IMG/VR virus record: IMGVR_UViG_3300031839_001451
Coordinates: 1 to 37,693 of that record
DNA: 37,693 bases
Source of the DNA: a virus
Strand: one strand, 5' to 3'
The translations under genes were made by a program, and so were the position numbers. Below the pieces are notes generated by a model, which saw only the letters and a list, made by a program, of their open reading frames with translations, made no database searches and was not told the DNA's origin. Below, one piece after another: positions 7,996 through 31,510 of the stretch. How positions within the stretch are numbered: the stretch's first letter is position 1; each line of letters starts with the position of its first letter.

Positions 7996-8309
7996 AACAC
8001 TATTACAGACGCAAGGACGGTACGGTATTCGCTCTGACATGCAGGATAAACTGTTATGACGAAGTGACATCGACATTAAAATATATCGGTGATGAAAAGA
8101 CTCTAATCACGAGATTAAAGCAAAGACGAAAGACGAAAGAGGTTGAAATGCTATTAGATGCATATGAAGAAGATATGAAAGAGCCTGAGTTTAGGCAGGG
8201 ATTTGAGCACGCACAGGAAGGCGTGAAGCCACAAAAGCAAGATGGTTTGTATTATGACGGGTATTCGCTTTGTGAGTCATACGAGCGAGCTATGGCGGGC
8301 ATACTATGA
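7992..8309 (+). CDS. Hypothetical early protein
   Basis: 105 residues from the GTG at 7992, which overlaps the previous stop (GTGA) and has AGGG ahead; an ATG at 7974 would add six residues. The sequence (KHYYRRKDGTVFALTCRINC, then LKQRRKTKEVEMLLDAYEED) is mixed alpha/beta and ends YERAMAGIL. No family recognised. Its stop overlaps the ERF start by ATGA, so the two are translationally coupled. Confidence 0.65.
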   Translation: MKHYYRRKDGTVFALTCRINCYDEVTSTLKYIGDEKTLITRLKQRRKTKEVEMLLDAYEEDMKEPEFRQGFEHAQEGVKPQKQDGLYYDGYSLCESYERAMAGIL

Positions 8310-9058
8310 ATATTAGCGAGCGACTGGCAAAGATACAGCGAGAGCTGAATGCGCCTAAAGGTCAATTCAATAGCTTCGGCAAGTATAAGTACCGAAATTG
8401 CGAAGATATTTTAATGGCGCTTAAGCCGCATTTAGATGGATGCCACATACTTATATCTGATGATATACAGTTAGTTGGTGACCGGTATTACATACGCGCT
8501 ACTGCAACTATATCTGATGGCACTCAGGCGTTAAGCGCTACTGCTTATGCGAGAGAGCCGCTAGACAAGAAAGGCATGGATTCATCTCAAATAACAGGTG
8601 CAGCATCTAGCTACGCAAGAAAGTACGCTTTAGGTGGGCTACTACTAATTGATGACAATAAAGATGCTGACTCTAAAGCGCCGGAAGATAACGAAGTACA
8701 ACTTGTGACTGATGCTCAGATAGCCACTTATCATACTCTGATCGATCATAGTAATGCATTGGGCCTGCTAGCATTCACAAAATCCCTAAGTGAGGATCAG
8801 GCCGCTGCCTTGCCGCATCCGTTTAAGTCTGGCGAGATAGTGAAAGGCAGAGAAAAGATAAGGGAGCTTTTAAGGCGTGGCGAAATGATGGCTGACGAGA
8901 TATTCACAAACGTAACCGAGCTTGTGAGAACCGACGACCCATCAGCGCTTGAATGGGTAGAAGGATTGTCAGACACAGAAAAAAAATACATTGCTAGCAT
9001 TCTTCACAAAGATGACCTGGCAAAATTAAAGCAAATGAAGGAAAAATCAAATGGCTAA
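8306..9058 (+). CDS. erf: ERF-family single-strand annealing protein
   Basis: 250 residues. The N-terminal 120 carry ERF-superfamily signatures: FNSFGKYKYRNCEDILMALK, then KKGMDSSQITGAASSYARKY and ALGGLLLIDDNKDADS. ERF proteins anneal complementary single strands in recombination-dependent replication and circularisation. The C-terminal part is charged and helical, variable in the family. It overlaps the SSB-like gene by eight bases, the usual pairing of annealing protein and SSB. Confidence 0.9.
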   Translation: MNISERLAKIQRELNAPKGQFNSFGKYKYRNCEDILMALKPHLDGCHILISDDIQLVGDRYYIRATATISDGTQALSATAYAREPLDKKGMDSSQITGAASSYARKYALGGLLLIDDNKDADSKAPEDNEVQLVTDAQIATYHTLIDHSNALGLLAFTKSLSEDQAAALPHPFKSGEIVKGREKIRELLRRGEMMADEIFTNVTELVRTDDPSALEWVEGLSDTEKKYIASILHKDDLAKLKQMKEKSNG

Positions 9059-9366: not shown

Positions 9367-9663
9367 ATGAGCTTACAGGCATCAATTGTCATAGCTGCGT
9401 TGAGTGGAGTTAAGCTGATCGCAACGGATGCAGGGCCGTCTCAAACAAATTGTTTTAAGTGTATCAACCGTCGGGATGTGCCCGGCAACGCCCACATAGA
9501 ATGCGCCAAGCCATGGCATCGTGTGAGTGCAAATAGGCATGGCATAGAAAATGGGTGGTTTATGTATCCGAAGCTGTTTGATCCAGTATGGATGACCTCT
9601 GAATGTCCAAACTTTTCTGAGAAAGAAAACCTCGCAGTAGAGTCTGTCGGTAAGCCTATGTAA
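9367..9663 (+). CDS. Conserved phage protein with Cys pairs
   Basis: 98 residues with TNCFKCINRRDVPGNAHIEC, then HGIENGWFMYPKLFDPVWMT and a final Cys. This spacing (CxxC, later C, and NGWFxxPxxFDPVW) is found in a widespread phage family without assigned function, and would suit a small zinc site. GGGG lies just ahead of the ATG. It is followed directly by the structured non-coding region. Confidence 0.75.
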   Translation: MSLQASIVIAALSGVKLIATDAGPSQTNCFKCINRRDVPGNAHIECAKPWHRVSANRHGIENGWFMYPKLFDPVWMTSECPNFSEKENLAVESVGKPM

Positions 9664-9664
9664 G

Positions 9665-9713
9665 GCCCAACACATATAGAATCAGTAGGCTATAAGCTGA
9701 AATTCTATCGGGC
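9665..9713 (+). other. Large hairpin just past a stop codon
   Basis: GCCC (9665-9668) pairs with GGGC (9710-9713); inside it ATAGAATCAG pairs with CTG-AA-ATTCTAT with an AA bulge, loop of 11. It begins two bases after the TAA of the preceding gene. No T-tract follows, so it is not a standard terminator; it may be an mRNA-end or processing structure, or the 5' domain of the structured element that follows. Confidence 0.5.
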
Positions 9714-9780
9714 AATAGCAGTAAGTACAGCAGTTAGACGAGTTAGTTTTTTGAAGATAAGTTGGAACATAAGAGCAATG

Positions 9781-9958
9781 ACCGGTGGGGGCGTTGACGT
9801 GGTGGCACGTCTCTGCTGGTCTCCAAGCAATGGCGAGAATGCGCAGTGGTGATGCGCAAGAGGTTTCGATGCAAAAGTGTATCGAGGGGAAGGCCCCAAG
9901 GGCGCTGTCAAAGGGCTGAACACCCTTCAAGCCGGAGATCACTACCGGCCTCGCCACC
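9781..9958 (+). ncRNA. Multi-hairpin structured RNA candidate
   Basis: No plus-strand frame covers 9664-9976. TGGCGAG (9831-9837) pairs with CTCGCCA (9950-9956) and encloses five hairpins: TGCGCA/TGCGCA (9840-9858), TCGATGC/GTATCGA (9866-9885, one G-U), GGGG/CCCC (9886-9897), AAGGG/CCCTT with a 7-base loop (9911-9927) and GCCGG/CCGGC (9931-9949). Two more precede it: GACGT/ACGTC (9796-9811) and GCTGG/CCAAGC (about 9815-9828). The G-U pairs favour the plus strand. The 3' end resembles a tRNA (A-CCA end, 5-bp/7-base arm, 4-base linker) but the T-loop is not canonical. Family unknown. Confidence 0.6.
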
Positions 9959-9976
9959 AATTAGAGGGTAGAGAGA

Positions 9977-10135
9977 ATGAAGTTTCACATACGTTATGAG
10001 CCAATGGGTGGAGAATGGTATTACATGATTTATGTAAAAGTGTTTTTCTTTCTGCCTTGGTATTTTTATGAGCGCTGGAACACTCCGGAGTCTGCCATTA
10101 AGAGGCTTGCGGAATTAAGGGTAGACCATGACTAA
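9977..10135 (+). CDS. 52-residue aromatic small protein
   Basis: MKFHIRYEPMGGEWYYMIYV then a very aromatic stretch (FFFLPWYFYERW) and a basic helix (ESAIKRLAELRV). GAGGG lies nine bases upstream. It overlaps the DUF551 gene by eight bases. No family recognised; the aromatic patch could be a strand or a membrane-associated region. Confidence 0.6.
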   Translation: MKFHIRYEPMGGEWYYMIYVKVFFFLPWYFYERWNTPESAIKRLAELRVDHD

Positions 10136-10355
10136 CTGGATAGATGTGAATGATCGGCTGCCAGACACAAACAGACAGGTATTAGTCTGGACAGTCTTCG
10201 GCTTTGGCTTGGATCAATGGGATGAAATTAATGAAGCGCCCGTTTCTTTCAGCAGTCAAACAATATGTGTTGGTGAGGGATGGCTAGAACACGACTTTGA
10301 TCAGGTAACCCACTGGGCCGAAATAACCACACCAACAGAGAGGGCGGAAGGGTGA
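10128..10355 (+). CDS. DUF551 protein
   Basis: 75 residues with the DUF551 pattern: NWIDVNDRLPDTNRQVLVWT at the start, a Gly-Trp in the middle, and VTHWAEITTPTE near the end. DUF551 is frequent in phage early regions and of unknown function. It overlaps the neighbours on both sides (eight bases and GTGA). Confidence 0.8.
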   Translation: MTNWIDVNDRLPDTNRQVLVWTVFGFGLDQWDEINEAPVSFSSQTICVGEGWLEHDFDQVTHWAEITTPTERAEG

Positions 10356-10534: not shown

Positions 10535-10650
10535 GTGAATTTCTGATTAACCTAGCATTATTATGCATTGGCATTGCGCTAATCCTGATTGATCTGAAAC
10601 TAAAGAAGTTAGAACAACCAAAAGGCGGGGACGATGAGACAAATGATTGA
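10531..10650 (+). CDS. 39-residue membrane peptide
   Basis: Starts at a GTG overlapping the previous stop: MSEFLINLALLCIGIALILI, then a Lys-rich tail. One membrane helix. GAAGG lies upstream. It overlaps the next gene by 17 bases. Unknown function. Confidence 0.5.
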   Translation: MSEFLINLALLCIGIALILIDLKLKKLEQPKGGDDETND

Positions 10651-10990
10651 GATACCAGAATTTTTGCTAGAAATGTCAAAGCAGATGCACGAGCAGGATA
10701 ACCGGCTTACTGCTGACCCCGTGTGGCAGGTTAGGTGCAATAGATTCAGAGTTACGGATAGCGAATACAGTGACCACTATCAAATCATTAAAAACGATGA
10801 GGGCTATGTAGTTTTTGACAGCGAAAGTGATGATGATTTACAGGAATGTCTTGATGATTATAGATCAGAATTTTCACGCGACTGGGAAGAGGTCAACGAA
10901 AAGGCGCTGTCATTTTTCAAGCGCTCAATGCTCTGCGGTGACGATTGGAGTGAAACACACGAGAAACAAAGGAGCGAGAGTGATGGGTAG
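10634..10990 (+). CDS. Acidic hypothetical early protein
   Basis: 118 residues; MRQMIEIPEFLLEMSKQMHE, then a beta-like segment and a very acidic region (VVFDSESDDDLQECLDDY). GGCGGGG precedes the ATG. The stop overlaps the next start. Acidity could indicate a DNA-mimic or nucleoid-binding role, but there is no family evidence. Confidence 0.6.
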   Translation: MRQMIEIPEFLLEMSKQMHEQDNRLTADPVWQVRCNRFRVTDSEYSDHYQIIKNDEGYVVFDSESDDDLQECLDDYRSEFSRDWEEVNEKALSFFKRSMLCGDDWSETHEKQRSESDG

Positions 10991-28158: not shown

Positions 28159-30020
28159 TTAGTAGGCAATCCTACCATCGAAACGTTCGCTATTCGCTCC
28201 ATTGCGCTCGCTTCTTCGTCTTTTGTTTGGGATGCCTTGAGCTGAACATCGGCCAAGTTCTTCTGTGTCTCAGAGTTTGTCTTCTCAATATCCGCCATGA
28301 TCTGCGCTTGCTGAACCTGCATAGCTTGAGCTTGCTGCTCTTGTTGTGCCTGCTGCGCTTGTGGATCACCTTTAAACTTATCCATGATCTTATCTTTACC
28401 CTTCAGCGTTGATAGCTGAAGCAGTATGTCAAACATCTGTGGATCAGCCCTAGAGCCTGCCAGTTGTGCCAATGTATCAAACTGCTCTTGCTGTATCGTC
28501 GCAGTATCTGGCGCCTCTTCCAGGGTGATATCCATATCAATCTCAGCAACGTTATTTCTAGTCTCTACAACCTGACCTAAAGACGGATCACGAGCTAGAG
28601 CTTGCTCAATAAATTGATCTACTTGATCACCTGCTTGCTGTCTGATATCACTTATATCCTTACCTGACTGCTCTTCCATCATTTTCTCAATACGAGTAAT
28701 GGGTGTATTCAAACCGACAAACTTCATTGCATCTTCTTCATCCGTTACGCGCACCCATTTCTCTTCCGTCCAGAACTGCTTGATCCTAGACCATATCTGG
28801 CGATAAACACGGCGCTTCCACTCTGAATGTCTTGAGAAGACCCTGGCAAGCTCGACCATACCGCCCTGCTGTCTGGCAAGAAATGCCCTGCCTGATATGG
28901 CATTTTCGCTACCGCCTGTAAGCTCTGGATTAATACCTACTGAGTCCATGGCGTTCTGAGCATCTTGATAGAAAGCCAGTTGTGACTGCCCTAGTTCTTG
29001 CTGCTGATCAACAATAACCTCAGTTCCAGGTGTCTTCTCCAAGAAAGACATACCCTTACGCATCTCATCTAGAACAACTTCCCTAGGTACATCAGCAAAG
29101 GCACCACGCTCAGCAATAATACTCTTAGACGACAACATGAATAACGCCTTAGAGCGTCGATGATTGATCTCGTCTTGCGGGTCTTTTAGGCGCTCCGTGT
29201 ATCCATACCGATTGTTGTCTCTATCAGTAAAGTCACTCTGAAGCTCAATAGGACATGTAGGGTCGCCCATCTCATCTAAATAAGGGCTTTCTTTCGGCTC
29301 AATAAGCACTGTGTCGCCAGTGTAGAACACTTGCATCCACTTACCACCCTGTAGAAAGTACTCCTCATTAACTCTGACACGCTTGCGCTTGCGGTCTATC
29401 CAGTTGGTTGGCCTATCCTCAAATGTGGTGCCATCCATACCTTTAGACACCATTAGAGCTTCGATCTTATCCTTGCTGGCTTTGAACCTATCTTCCGCGT
29501 CGCTCTTATCCATCCACAACGTAATGCCGAAATACTTAGCATCTTTAAAGTCTTTGCGCCTTGAATGCGGGTCAAAGTAGATGCGATCCCAATACAATTG
29601 GTTTATCTCTATAACGAAGTCATCTTTCTTCTCTGAGACTTCAATAATGACACCGCCATACCCTTCAACGATCTTATCCTCAAATACTTCTGAGGCTATT
29701 TCATCAAAGTTTGTTCTTGCTTCAACATACCTAAGCGCATCTGTAATAGCATCGCTAGCCTTCTCATGCTTAGGTGTAATCGGCAACGCTTTAGGGTCTG
29801 ACCGTCTTTGTATTTCTAATCCACATATAGCATCAACTTTCTTGCCGAACTGATCAAAAACAATCGGGGCCTGACCTCTAGCTTCTAATGCTGCAGCTTC
29901 CTTTTCTGACCACTGCTTTAAATCTCTATAATCGCGCCTAGCTTCTGCACGCTCACGCTCTTCTTCCGTTGCGTTTACGAAATCCTCGAAATGATCTTTA
30001 AAACTTACATTGTCCGCCAT
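28155..30020 (-). CDS. Portal protein, P22 gp1-like
   Basis: 621 residues. RDYRDLKQWSEKEAAALEAR, then KKVDAICGLEIQRRSD near the N-terminus and DRDNNRYGYTERLKDPQDEI then NHRRSKALFMLSSKSI in the middle follow the P22-type portal. The C-terminal 80 residues are Gln-rich helix, the barrel region. It forms the twelve-subunit gate through which DNA is packaged and ejected. Overlaps the large terminase by 16 bases. Confidence 0.85.
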   Translation of the reverse strand: MADNVSFKDHFEDFVNATEEERERAEARRDYRDLKQWSEKEAAALEARGQAPIVFDQFGKKVDAICGLEIQRRSDPKALPITPKHEKASDAITDALRYVEARTNFDEIASEVFEDKIVEGYGGVIIEVSEKKDDFVIEINQLYWDRIYFDPHSRRKDFKDAKYFGITLWMDKSDAEDRFKASKDKIEALMVSKGMDGTTFEDRPTNWIDRKRKRVRVNEEYFLQGGKWMQVFYTGDTVLIEPKESPYLDEMGDPTCPIELQSDFTDRDNNRYGYTERLKDPQDEINHRRSKALFMLSSKSIIAERGAFADVPREVVLDEMRKGMSFLEKTPGTEVIVDQQQELGQSQLAFYQDAQNAMDSVGINPELTGGSENAISGRAFLARQQGGMVELARVFSRHSEWKRRVYRQIWSRIKQFWTEEKWVRVTDEEDAMKFVGLNTPITRIEKMMEEQSGKDISDIRQQAGDQVDQFIEQALARDPSLGQVVETRNNVAEIDMDITLEEAPDTATIQQEQFDTLAQLAGSRADPQMFDILLQLSTLKGKDKIMDKFKGDPQAQQAQQEQQAQAMQVQQAQIMADIEKTNSETQKNLADVQLKASQTKDEEASAMERIANVSMVGLPTK

Positions 30021-31510
30021 GAGCTACCGCCTTTTGACCTACCCCATAAATCTTTAGGAGCTGGCTTAGAATTAGTTGAGTGTATTATAGCAGGGTGCGC
30101 TTGCTGAATAGCCATTGCTACCAGTGCGCAAACATCTACCGCATCATCGTATTTACCCATTGGAAACTTACATAGCTGGTCGATTAATCTATCACCCCAA
30201 TCACAATACGGTATATGAACATTGCCTGCTGCTGCCATACCTTGGAATGCTCTGGCCATTGCTGCTTTATCACCAGATCGAGTTATCCACTCTAGCCTAG
30301 GGTAGATCTTTCTCTGTCTTGATCTCATCAACTGGAACGGCTCTACTGCTCTACGTATCTGTCCCGTCTCACCAAAAGCTGCATAACAATTATGTTTGTC
30401 ATACTGAGTGAGCTGCTCTTCAATCCAAACGTCCGTCGTTGTTTGTCCGTACCACCAATCCTTAATCCATAACTGATGGTCTTTATCCACACCAATAATA
30501 CCAAGCTCTGTGAAGTCTCCTTCACCCTCTTTGGTCGCAAAGTCTGTCGATTGATAATTGTTAGTTTGTGGTGCCTTCCCTAGTTCATACCTGTTAAACC
30601 ATTCTCTCTTAAAGAACGATCCTTCCTCATCTGAGGGTATCTGCATGTATAACGCATTCCAGTCACGCATATACTTGCCATCCCTAGTAACCACCTTTTT
30701 AGTCTGTGGCCAGAAGTCCTTCTCGAAATACTCCTCCCATAGCCACTCACCCGGCTTTCTACCTAGAATGTCGTTATCCTTAGCTTGAGCTGGCAAACAC
30801 ACAACCTCCCAATCCTCGCCGTCTCTACTAGTTATTGTGCCTGACTCACCATTCCATCCTTCCGGCAATATACGGCCAGCAAGGTCATCTTCATGCCATC
30901 TGGTCTGAATAATAACGATTGATGCGCCTGGCTTGAGTCGTGTTCTAAAGTCGCTGATATACCAATTCCAACAGTTATCTCTAATCAACTGGCTGTCTGC
31001 ATCTTTAGCGCCACGAATAGGATCATCGATAATACCTAAGTCGCCACGCCTGCCTGTCACACCCCCACCAATACCTACTGAGAAATAGAATCCGCCATCT
31101 GATGTCTCCCATTCGCCTTTAGATTGAGAGTCAGCCTTAAGCGCTAAACCAGGGAATAGAGTTTGTGTTTCTGATTGCTTGATTAGGTTTCTTGTCTTGC
31201 GGCCAAACTGAGTAGCTAGGGTATCGTTATAACTGGCGCATATGACGCCTTTCTTCTTAAGCCTGCCTAGATAGAATGAAGGGAATCTTACTGTGGCATA
31301 TGTTGACTTAGCGCTGCCTGGTGGCATTAAGAACATAGCTCTCTTACATGTGCCTTTTACTATCTTGTCGGCAATATCACATATAAGCTCGTGGTGTTTG
31401 GCTGGCGGCTCTTCTGGTGCTACGTATCTACAGAAGTCTGCGAATCCCTGCCTTCCTTTCCGCCTTGCTAGTAACTCCTTTGCTGCTTGGACCCTAGCCG
31501 CCTGTGACAA
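30005..31510 (-). CDS. terL: Terminase large subunit
   Basis: 501 residues. ATPase: Walker A PPGSAKST at 63-70, coupling segment, Walker B LGIIDD at 158-163. Nuclease: FATKEGEGDFTELGIIGVD near 345, with Asp residues of the RNase H-like site, and KYDDAVDVCALVAMA near the end. It pumps and cuts DNA at the portal. Length and motif order fit P22/Sf6-type headful-packaging terminases. Overlaps TerS by 17 bases. Confidence 0.9.
   Translation of the reverse strand: MSQAARVQAAKELLARRKGRQGFADFCRYVAPEEPPAKHHELICDIADKIVKGTCKRAMFLMPPGSAKSTYATVRFPSFYLGRLKKKGVICASYNDTLATQFGRKTRNLIKQSETQTLFPGLALKADSQSKGEWETSDGGFYFSVGIGGGVTGRRGDLGIIDDPIRGAKDADSQLIRDNCWNWYISDFRTRLKPGASIVIIQTRWHEDDLAGRILPEGWNGESGTITSRDGEDWEVVCLPAQAKDNDILGRKPGEWLWEEYFEKDFWPQTKKVVTRDGKYMRDWNALYMQIPSDEEGSFFKREWFNRYELGKAPQTNNYQSTDFATKEGEGDFTELGIIGVDKDHQLWIKDWWYGQTTTDVWIEEQLTQYDKHNCYAAFGETGQIRRAVEPFQLMRSRQRKIYPRLEWITRSGDKAAMARAFQGMAAAGNVHIPYCDWGDRLIDQLCKFPMGKYDDAVDVCALVAMAIQQAHPAIIHSTNSKPAPKDLWGRSKGGSSWRTM

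Follow-up and report, generated by a model that had tools for sequence, protein, structure and literature searches.

A structured RNA in a phage early operon belongs to a widespread, previously unannotated family with a kissing-loop frame and a hypervariable interior

The window analysed here is the whole 37,693-nucleotide stretch of a viral record (IMG/VR IMGVR_UViG_3300031839_001451, positions 1 to 37,693), a 37.7-kb record with a P22-like look. Among its genes are those for an ERF recombinase (8306-9058), a DUF551 protein (10128-10355), an Ead-like protein (10634-10990) and, on the minus strand, the large terminase (30005-31510). The plus-strand early operon contains a gene-free gap (9664-9976) between the open reading frames at 9367-9663 and 9977-10135, delimited from the open reading frame list and the sequence, with stops in all frames. 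The list gives it 313 nt, in agreement with an earlier sequence-only reading, which had described about 310 bases without a plus-strand gene. No conserved protein coding was found in the region of the RNA described below, all reading frames of which carry stops, and coding in the gap was rejected because the variable segment of the RNA ranges from 30 to 163 nt across the family, in any frame. No match to a plus-strand promoter or terminator was found at the RNA locus of the window, nor did ARAGORN and Rfam find a tRNA or tmRNA in the window. The upstream reading frame (9367-9663) encodes a 98-aa protein with spaced cysteines (CFKC...C), for which no relatives were found in Pfam, PHROGs or the phage collection. 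Within the gap, 19 of the 20 bases at 9764-9783 match part of the Rfam IscS-1 thermometer consensus (E 3.4), probably by chance.

Positions 9780-9956 of the plus strand form a structured RNA, a member of a widespread and previously unannotated phage RNA family. The stretch 9781-9958, which the sequence-only reading had flagged as a multi-hairpin RNA candidate, brackets the whole RNA, its upstream hairpin included. It folds with a minimum free energy of -75.5 kcal/mol (z -2.2 against dinucleotide shuffles; 5 of 200 were as low), and its plus-strand fold beats all 151 sampled 178-nt segments of the same genome. The minus strand of the region is also the lowest among the sampled segments, so that the strand was decided by G-U pairs. 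At the conserved pairs, family-wide, 24 G-U cells exceed 6 A-C cells, which places the RNA on the plus strand, as the sequence-only reading had proposed from G-U pairs. That reading was also right about a 7-bp closing helix (UGGCGAG, 9831-9837, with CUCGCCA, 9950-9956) and about five ordered hairpins inside it, which the fold places at about 9840-9858, 9866-9885, 9886-9897, 9898-9926 and 9931-9949. Its claim of two more hairpins upstream held in part: one strong, G-U-rich hairpin of 14 bp is present, and the second was not confirmed.

The family frame is ordered as an upstream hairpin (D1), the closing helix (P1), a hairpin (P2), a payload (V) and a last hairpin (P3), with the P3 loop pairing with the P2 loop as a kissing helix. 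In the window, D1 lies at 9780-9821 as a helix with many G-U pairs (9780-9793 with 9808-9821), supported by the fold and by enrichment in the family. Both strands of helix P1 are supported by the fold, by the covariance-model alignment and by double changes in the family. P2 (UGCGCA-GUGGUGA-UGCGCA, 9840-9858), supported by the covariance model and by the pair changes given below, bears in its loop the kissing sequence UGGUGA (9847-9852), which extends to GUGGUGAU (9846-9853). V follows at 9859-9930, holds two or three hairpins here and ends in a conserved AA before P3. P3 (GCCGG-AGAUCACUA-CCGGC, 9931-9949), placed by the covariance model and having stem variants in relatives, carries the matching sequence UCACUA (9939-9944), which extends to AUCACUAC (9938-9945); the two loops of the window are thus complementary over 8 nt. 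The unpaired nucleotides at the junctions and in the P3 loop (AA/AA and AGA) are invariant, partly through preselection by the scan pattern.

Close homologues of the window RNA were found neither by nucleotide search nor via the neighbouring proteins P0001 and P0002. Among 80 contigs fetched with the ERF protein, nhmmer gave one borderline match (L009:398-531, E 0.019), which aligns exactly over the flagged candidate region, and a weak plasmid BLAST match brought up a plasmid of E. coli (about 109 kb), in which the element lies between tRNA-Thr and tRNA-Ser. Common to these first relatives are a hairpin near UGCGCA-loop-UGCGC, a final GCCGG-loop-CCGGC hairpin and complementary loops; their closing helix is of unrelated sequence. 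A scan of 2.9 million viral contigs with the last hairpin, in which the P3 sequence was fixed, returned at least 120 contigs; of 104 distinct matches, nearly all had the full frame. A first P2 pattern with a loose tail gave mostly chance matches and was rejected.

A covariance model (R1) was built from 60 diverse relatives with the window excluded. It matches the window RNA at 58.7 bits (E 4e-15) over model positions 1-134 of 134 and the L009 copy at E 2e-9, so that the first check proposed in the sequence-only reading, a search with a model of relatives, was passed. R1 also finds copies in phages P1 (two), P7, HK629, mEp460, IME207, phiEt88, IME10, IME11, Bullseye, HK620, CUS-3, D3, PY54, Bas80, Marin and Acidovorax phage AP1, and it finds none in K-12 CPS-53, the right half of lambda, the 9-24 kb stretch of P22 or the T4 tRNA region. 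When the window and 14 homologous loci were scanned with Rfam 15, only tRNA and one neighbouring abiF RNA reached the gathering threshold. The family is absent from that release, and the sequence-only reading had likewise recognised no family. The abiF-type RNA (RF03085, L289:1269-1305) starts at the 3' end of a family member.

Across the family, double compensatory changes occur in every one of the nine P1 pairs and the five P2 pairs. The observed covariation was reached by none of 500 shuffles on any measure, and slid registers drop to 28-48% paired. The combined covariance-model alignment has 20 of 24 pairs varying on both sides, three kissing pairs and three P3 pairs among them. Because the first scan had fixed the P3 sequence, the kissing interaction was tested independently of it. 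A scan for altered P3 loops led to matching P2 loops (GUCGAU/AUCGAC, UGCGAU/AUCGCA, UAGUGAU/AUCACUA and UGGCA/UGCCA), and a second scan, which asked for altered P2 loops and placed no constraint on P3, found P2 GGUCGA accompanied by UCGAC in every case with a resolved P3. Among relatives selected on P2 only, new stems of P3 (GCAGG/CCUGC and CUGGC/GCCAG) appeared. Moreover, of 28 non-consensus P2 loops, 26 form 5 bp or more with their own P3 loop, whereas 6 do so with the consensus P3 loop. The kissing pair is changed on both sides in about nine forms, for example GCUGAU/AUCAGC, GUCGAU/AUCGAC and UGCGAU/AUCGCA. Some of the aligned sequences come from related phages, and the events are accordingly fewer than the sequences; the roughly nine loop pairs are distinct. 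Compensatory change, a second check that had been proposed, is strong in every helix. Homology and covariation put the RNA far beyond chance and confirm the overall observation of the sequence-only reading, which had overlooked the pairing of the kissing loops, the hypervariability of the payload and how very widely the family is spread. The existence of the RNA family is almost certain.

Tandem family members were observed 4 nt apart on the minus strand of contig L453 (8385-8516 and 8520-8669), with different kissing loops, GUCGAU/AUCGAC and GAUGAU/AUCAUC. Two copies are also present in phage P1 and in L212, L241, L409, L413, L416, L422, L424 and L425.

The upstream hairpin D1 is part of the family design and is usually present. 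For 95 copies, the best helix ending no more than 14 nt from helix P1 far outscores random positions in the same contigs (p ~1e-12 to 2e-12) and also outscores shuffles. A D1 of the form N5-AUU...AGU-N5, in which a U-G wobble is fixed and the pairs beside it are exchangeable, was found in 40 of 123 copies as opposed to 0 of 128 random windows.

Between P2 and P3, V measures 30-163 nt in the set analysed, and 81 distinct V sequences were counted among 128 parsed instances. Folded alone, V does barely better than shuffles (mean z -0.5). The interior of helix P1 can be exchanged, and the RNA passes as a single unit from phage to unrelated phage. Identical V is found despite unrelated flanks in P1-type and mEp460-type phages, and the same flanks enclose completely different V in other phages. 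At the E. coli prophage locus ymfK-yfdP, the flanks and helix P1 (GTTGTGGT/ACCACAAC) are shared to the base, and two strains carry a wholly different interior within the same helix. It is conceivable that the hypervariability of V reflects relaxed peripheral sequence instead of a selected payload. The second interior (L437:1537-1640 in E. coli Ecol_732; also in cdtI, Ayreon, Evi and F1055) is a second structured RNA unrelated to the family, is matched in 61 phage records and has complementary segments of its own (GUAUGG/CCAUAC); it gave no Rfam match and no significant R1 match.

A perfect tRNA-type T-arm was found in 5 of the 81 distinct V sequences, where 0.03 were expected from shuffles and 0.34 in random windows. 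Such modules occur in a minority of V and are absent from the V of the window. The longest antisense match of the window V to its own genome is 11 nt, compared with a maximum of 13 nt in shuffles, and a role of V as antisense to its own phage was rejected, its complementarity not being beyond chance.

With a core-only query, 200 of 50,697 phage records were matched, the weakest of which rest on one short piece. The matched records belong mostly to phages of Klebsiella, Pseudomonas and Escherichia and also to those of Salmonella, Aeromonas, Yersinia, Hafnia and Acidovorax. Both temperate and virulent phages, differing in head type, carry the family. With a single E. coli copy as query, BLAST gave matches in 1,596 of 5,426 complete E. 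coli genomes (~29%), partly through shared flanks. A P3 pattern allowing two mismatches gave mostly chance matches in coding sequence across 399 Pseudomonadota genomes and was exact in only about 3 to 5 genomes, and these rare exact matches may fit an occurrence in prophages only.

The settings of the RNA are diverse. Copies lie inside tRNA clusters (phages P1, P7, D3, Marin and phiEt88, and pECAZ162_2), between pR'/qut and the holin gene S (HK620, CUS-3, IME10 and HK629), after a cI-like repressor gene in E. coli prophages and near small terminase genes in some contigs, and the window copy sits in the early operon. No recurring partner gene was found near the RNA, the largest neighbour cluster comprising 12 of 86 loci, and no integrase linkage was seen among the neighbours. 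A tRNA lies within 200 nt in 17 of 128 instances, on the same strand in all 17; many copies, that of the window included, are not adjacent to tRNA genes. The RNA forms a unit with tRNA-Met in Bas80 and with tRNA-Ser and tRNA-Arg in IME207, in both cases with mostly opposite-strand neighbours. The tRNA-Ser and tRNA-Arg genes of Salmonella phage IME207 (L338:2251-2338 and 2345-2420) lie directly downstream of the RNA and are unannotated. In Klebsiella phage 6991 the RNA opposes its neighbours and has only a tRNA remnant downstream. This remnant, just downstream of the RNA, is an apparent degenerate tRNA 3' half ending in CCA (L335:1639-1687). A match to TTGACA-17-TAGATT lies upstream of the RNA in both Bas80 and 6991. 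According to the P7 record, the C1 operator Op(ban) governs its tRNA transcript, an indication that tRNA-cluster copies of the P7 type are expressed lytically.

Among known systems, rnaC and rnaD of phage T4 (species 1 and 2) are nearest in kind to the family, yet they lie outside model R1. Like the family they are small phage RNAs (about 120-140 nt) beside tRNA genes, and rnaC has a T-arm, as do some family payload domains. Unlike the family they show no P1/P2/P3 kissing frame recognisable by eye, and the R1 search of the T4 tRNA region gave no match at E up to 10. Both are stable RNAs for which, to our knowledge, no function is known. In T4 rnaC (L427:10909-11047, minus strand) the T-arm is clear, CCGGG-UUCGAAU-CCCGG. 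GOLLD and ROOL are likewise structured non-coding RNAs of phages and bacteria, and they form RNA oligomers, that is, RNA-only complexes (PMC12286853). Some of them lie near tRNA genes, and they are several times longer than the RNA described here; Rfam scans gave no match between them and the family. Kissing-loop oligomers are also formed by the pRNA of phi29. The purine riboswitch resembles the family in layout only, with a closing helix and two hairpins with kissing loops; the family differs in its large variable domain between the hairpins and has neither a sequence match nor a riboswitch gene context.

Similar to the family, HK022 put and lambda nut/qut are structured RNAs of phage early or late operons. 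The family RNA differs from them in being transferable, hypervariable and often upstream of nothing but tRNAs, and the criterion for antitermination, a cis position upstream of controlled genes in every member, is not met in Bas80 and 6991. The c4 RNA of P1/P7 and sar of P22 are regulatory non-coding RNAs of the same or related phages; they are antisense RNAs, whereas no antisense target was found for the window V, and the P22 stretch at 9-24 kb, which includes sar, gave no significant covariance-model match. An integron attC site was rejected: the GTTRRRY...RYYYAAC cores are unmet (the window has UGGCGAG/CUCGCCA), and helix P1 varies freely with compensation. Neither the core sequence nor a description of the family was found in the open-access papers searched, which did not cover subscription journals or preprints. 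The family has likely gone undescribed until now; an earlier description is not excluded.

The function that fits best is that of a trans-acting stable RNA with tRNA-like processing, whose payload titrates or decoys a host factor. This is inferred without expression data, and we hold it tentatively, judging it slightly more apt to fail than to stand. The RNA would be excised from the operon or from a tRNA-type transcript, maturing like the tRNAs that accompany it. The kissing-loop frame would provide a nuclease-resistant fold, and the swappable payload would meet a target specific to the host and titrate or decoy it during infection. The most likely target would be a defence enzyme or a host factor that binds RNA or acts on tRNA. 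Action in trans is inferred because some copies have nothing to control in cis. A payload target that differs between hosts or phages is inferred because divergence and swapping affect the payload and leave the frame intact. Given the link to tRNA, enzymes that act on tRNA, defence nucleases among them, come first as candidates. Of the functions offered in the sequence-only reading, a trans-acting RNA or decoy would fit best; cis antitermination fits poorly, since several copies oppose their neighbours and are then followed only by a tRNA or by nothing.

Several other explanations were weighed. The RNA could be a base-pairing regulatory or immunity RNA, in which V supplies antisense seeds against transcripts of the host or of rival phages and the frame stabilises them. 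The swapping of alleles at one locus, and a payload that is hypervariable within a fixed frame, do resemble specificity switching. Nevertheless, this is unlikely, as complementarity of V to its own phage is not beyond chance (host targets were outside the scope) and V is often self-structured rather than single-stranded. Nor is a cis-acting transcript element likely, whether it served antitermination, processing or the control of a late leader, as HK022 put or lambda nut/qut would exemplify. In its favour are the operon-leader positions between pR'/qut and S in HK620, CUS-3, IME10 and HK629, the proximity to small terminase genes in some contigs and the position upstream of several genes in the window. 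Against it, the RNA in Bas80 and 6991 runs counter to its neighbours and has nothing downstream but a tRNA or a tRNA remnant, the downstream genes differ everywhere, and such an element has no need for a hypervariable, transferable payload of 30-163 nt.

A ligand-binding or catalytic RNA, with the conserved unpaired AA/AA and AGA as a putative core and V merely peripheral, would account for the invariant nucleotides; the P1-P2-P3 kissing layout recalls the purine riboswitch, and variable peripheral domains are common in such RNAs. We doubt such a putative activity: there is no conserved downstream gene or expression platform, Rfam scans gave no ribozyme or riboswitch match, some copies stand alone or occur twice in a single phage, and the whole interior is replaceable by a different RNA at the ymfK-yfdP locus. 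An RNA-RNA oligomer or packaging RNA, built as a ring or scaffold by P2 and P3 loops kissing between molecules, is more doubtful still. Being complementary, the loops could pair either in trans or in cis, but the family occurs in temperate and virulent phages with different head types, no single packaging gene is linked to it, and a closed helix P1 with a coaxial P3 would be expected to make cis pairing sterically easy. Finally, the exchange of the P1 interior as a block at one E. coli locus could suggest a DNA element, such as a recombination site or an attC-like cassette. This is all but ruled out by the 24 to 6 ratio of G-U to A-C cells, by the lack of a fixed core sequence in helix P1 and of any integrase linkage seen, and by the kissing-loop compensation, which makes sense for a folded single strand.

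A bolder form of the trans-acting decoy reading, which can be called no more than possible, is that of a modular anti-host system, in which phages of proteobacterial hosts share a horizontally mobile RNA chassis, made up of the upstream hairpin, the closing helix and a kissing-loop clamp, and swap diversifying payloads into it. Each payload would decoy or block a different host defence or tRNA-acting enzyme, and the system, if real, would be an RNA counterpart of anti-defence protein islands. Few RNAs combine so conserved a frame with near-total payload divergence, and the combination points towards an arms race or a specificity role. The carriers include E. coli phages, and the function is therefore open to deletion and pull-down. 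For RNA structural biology, the family supplies a clean, naturally occurring series of matched kissing loops. Long-studied model phages (P1, P7, HK620, HK629, mEp460, D3 and PY54) carry the RNA, nearly always without annotation.

The annotation under family matches is usually absent or reads hypothetical protein, and the RNA family accounts for many spurious entries of this kind in phage genomes. Probably spurious examples, annotated as hypothetical proteins and overlapping the RNA, include orf86 of D3 (L432:1705-2019), 6991_0048 (L335) and Bas80_0055 and Bas80_0056 (L434).
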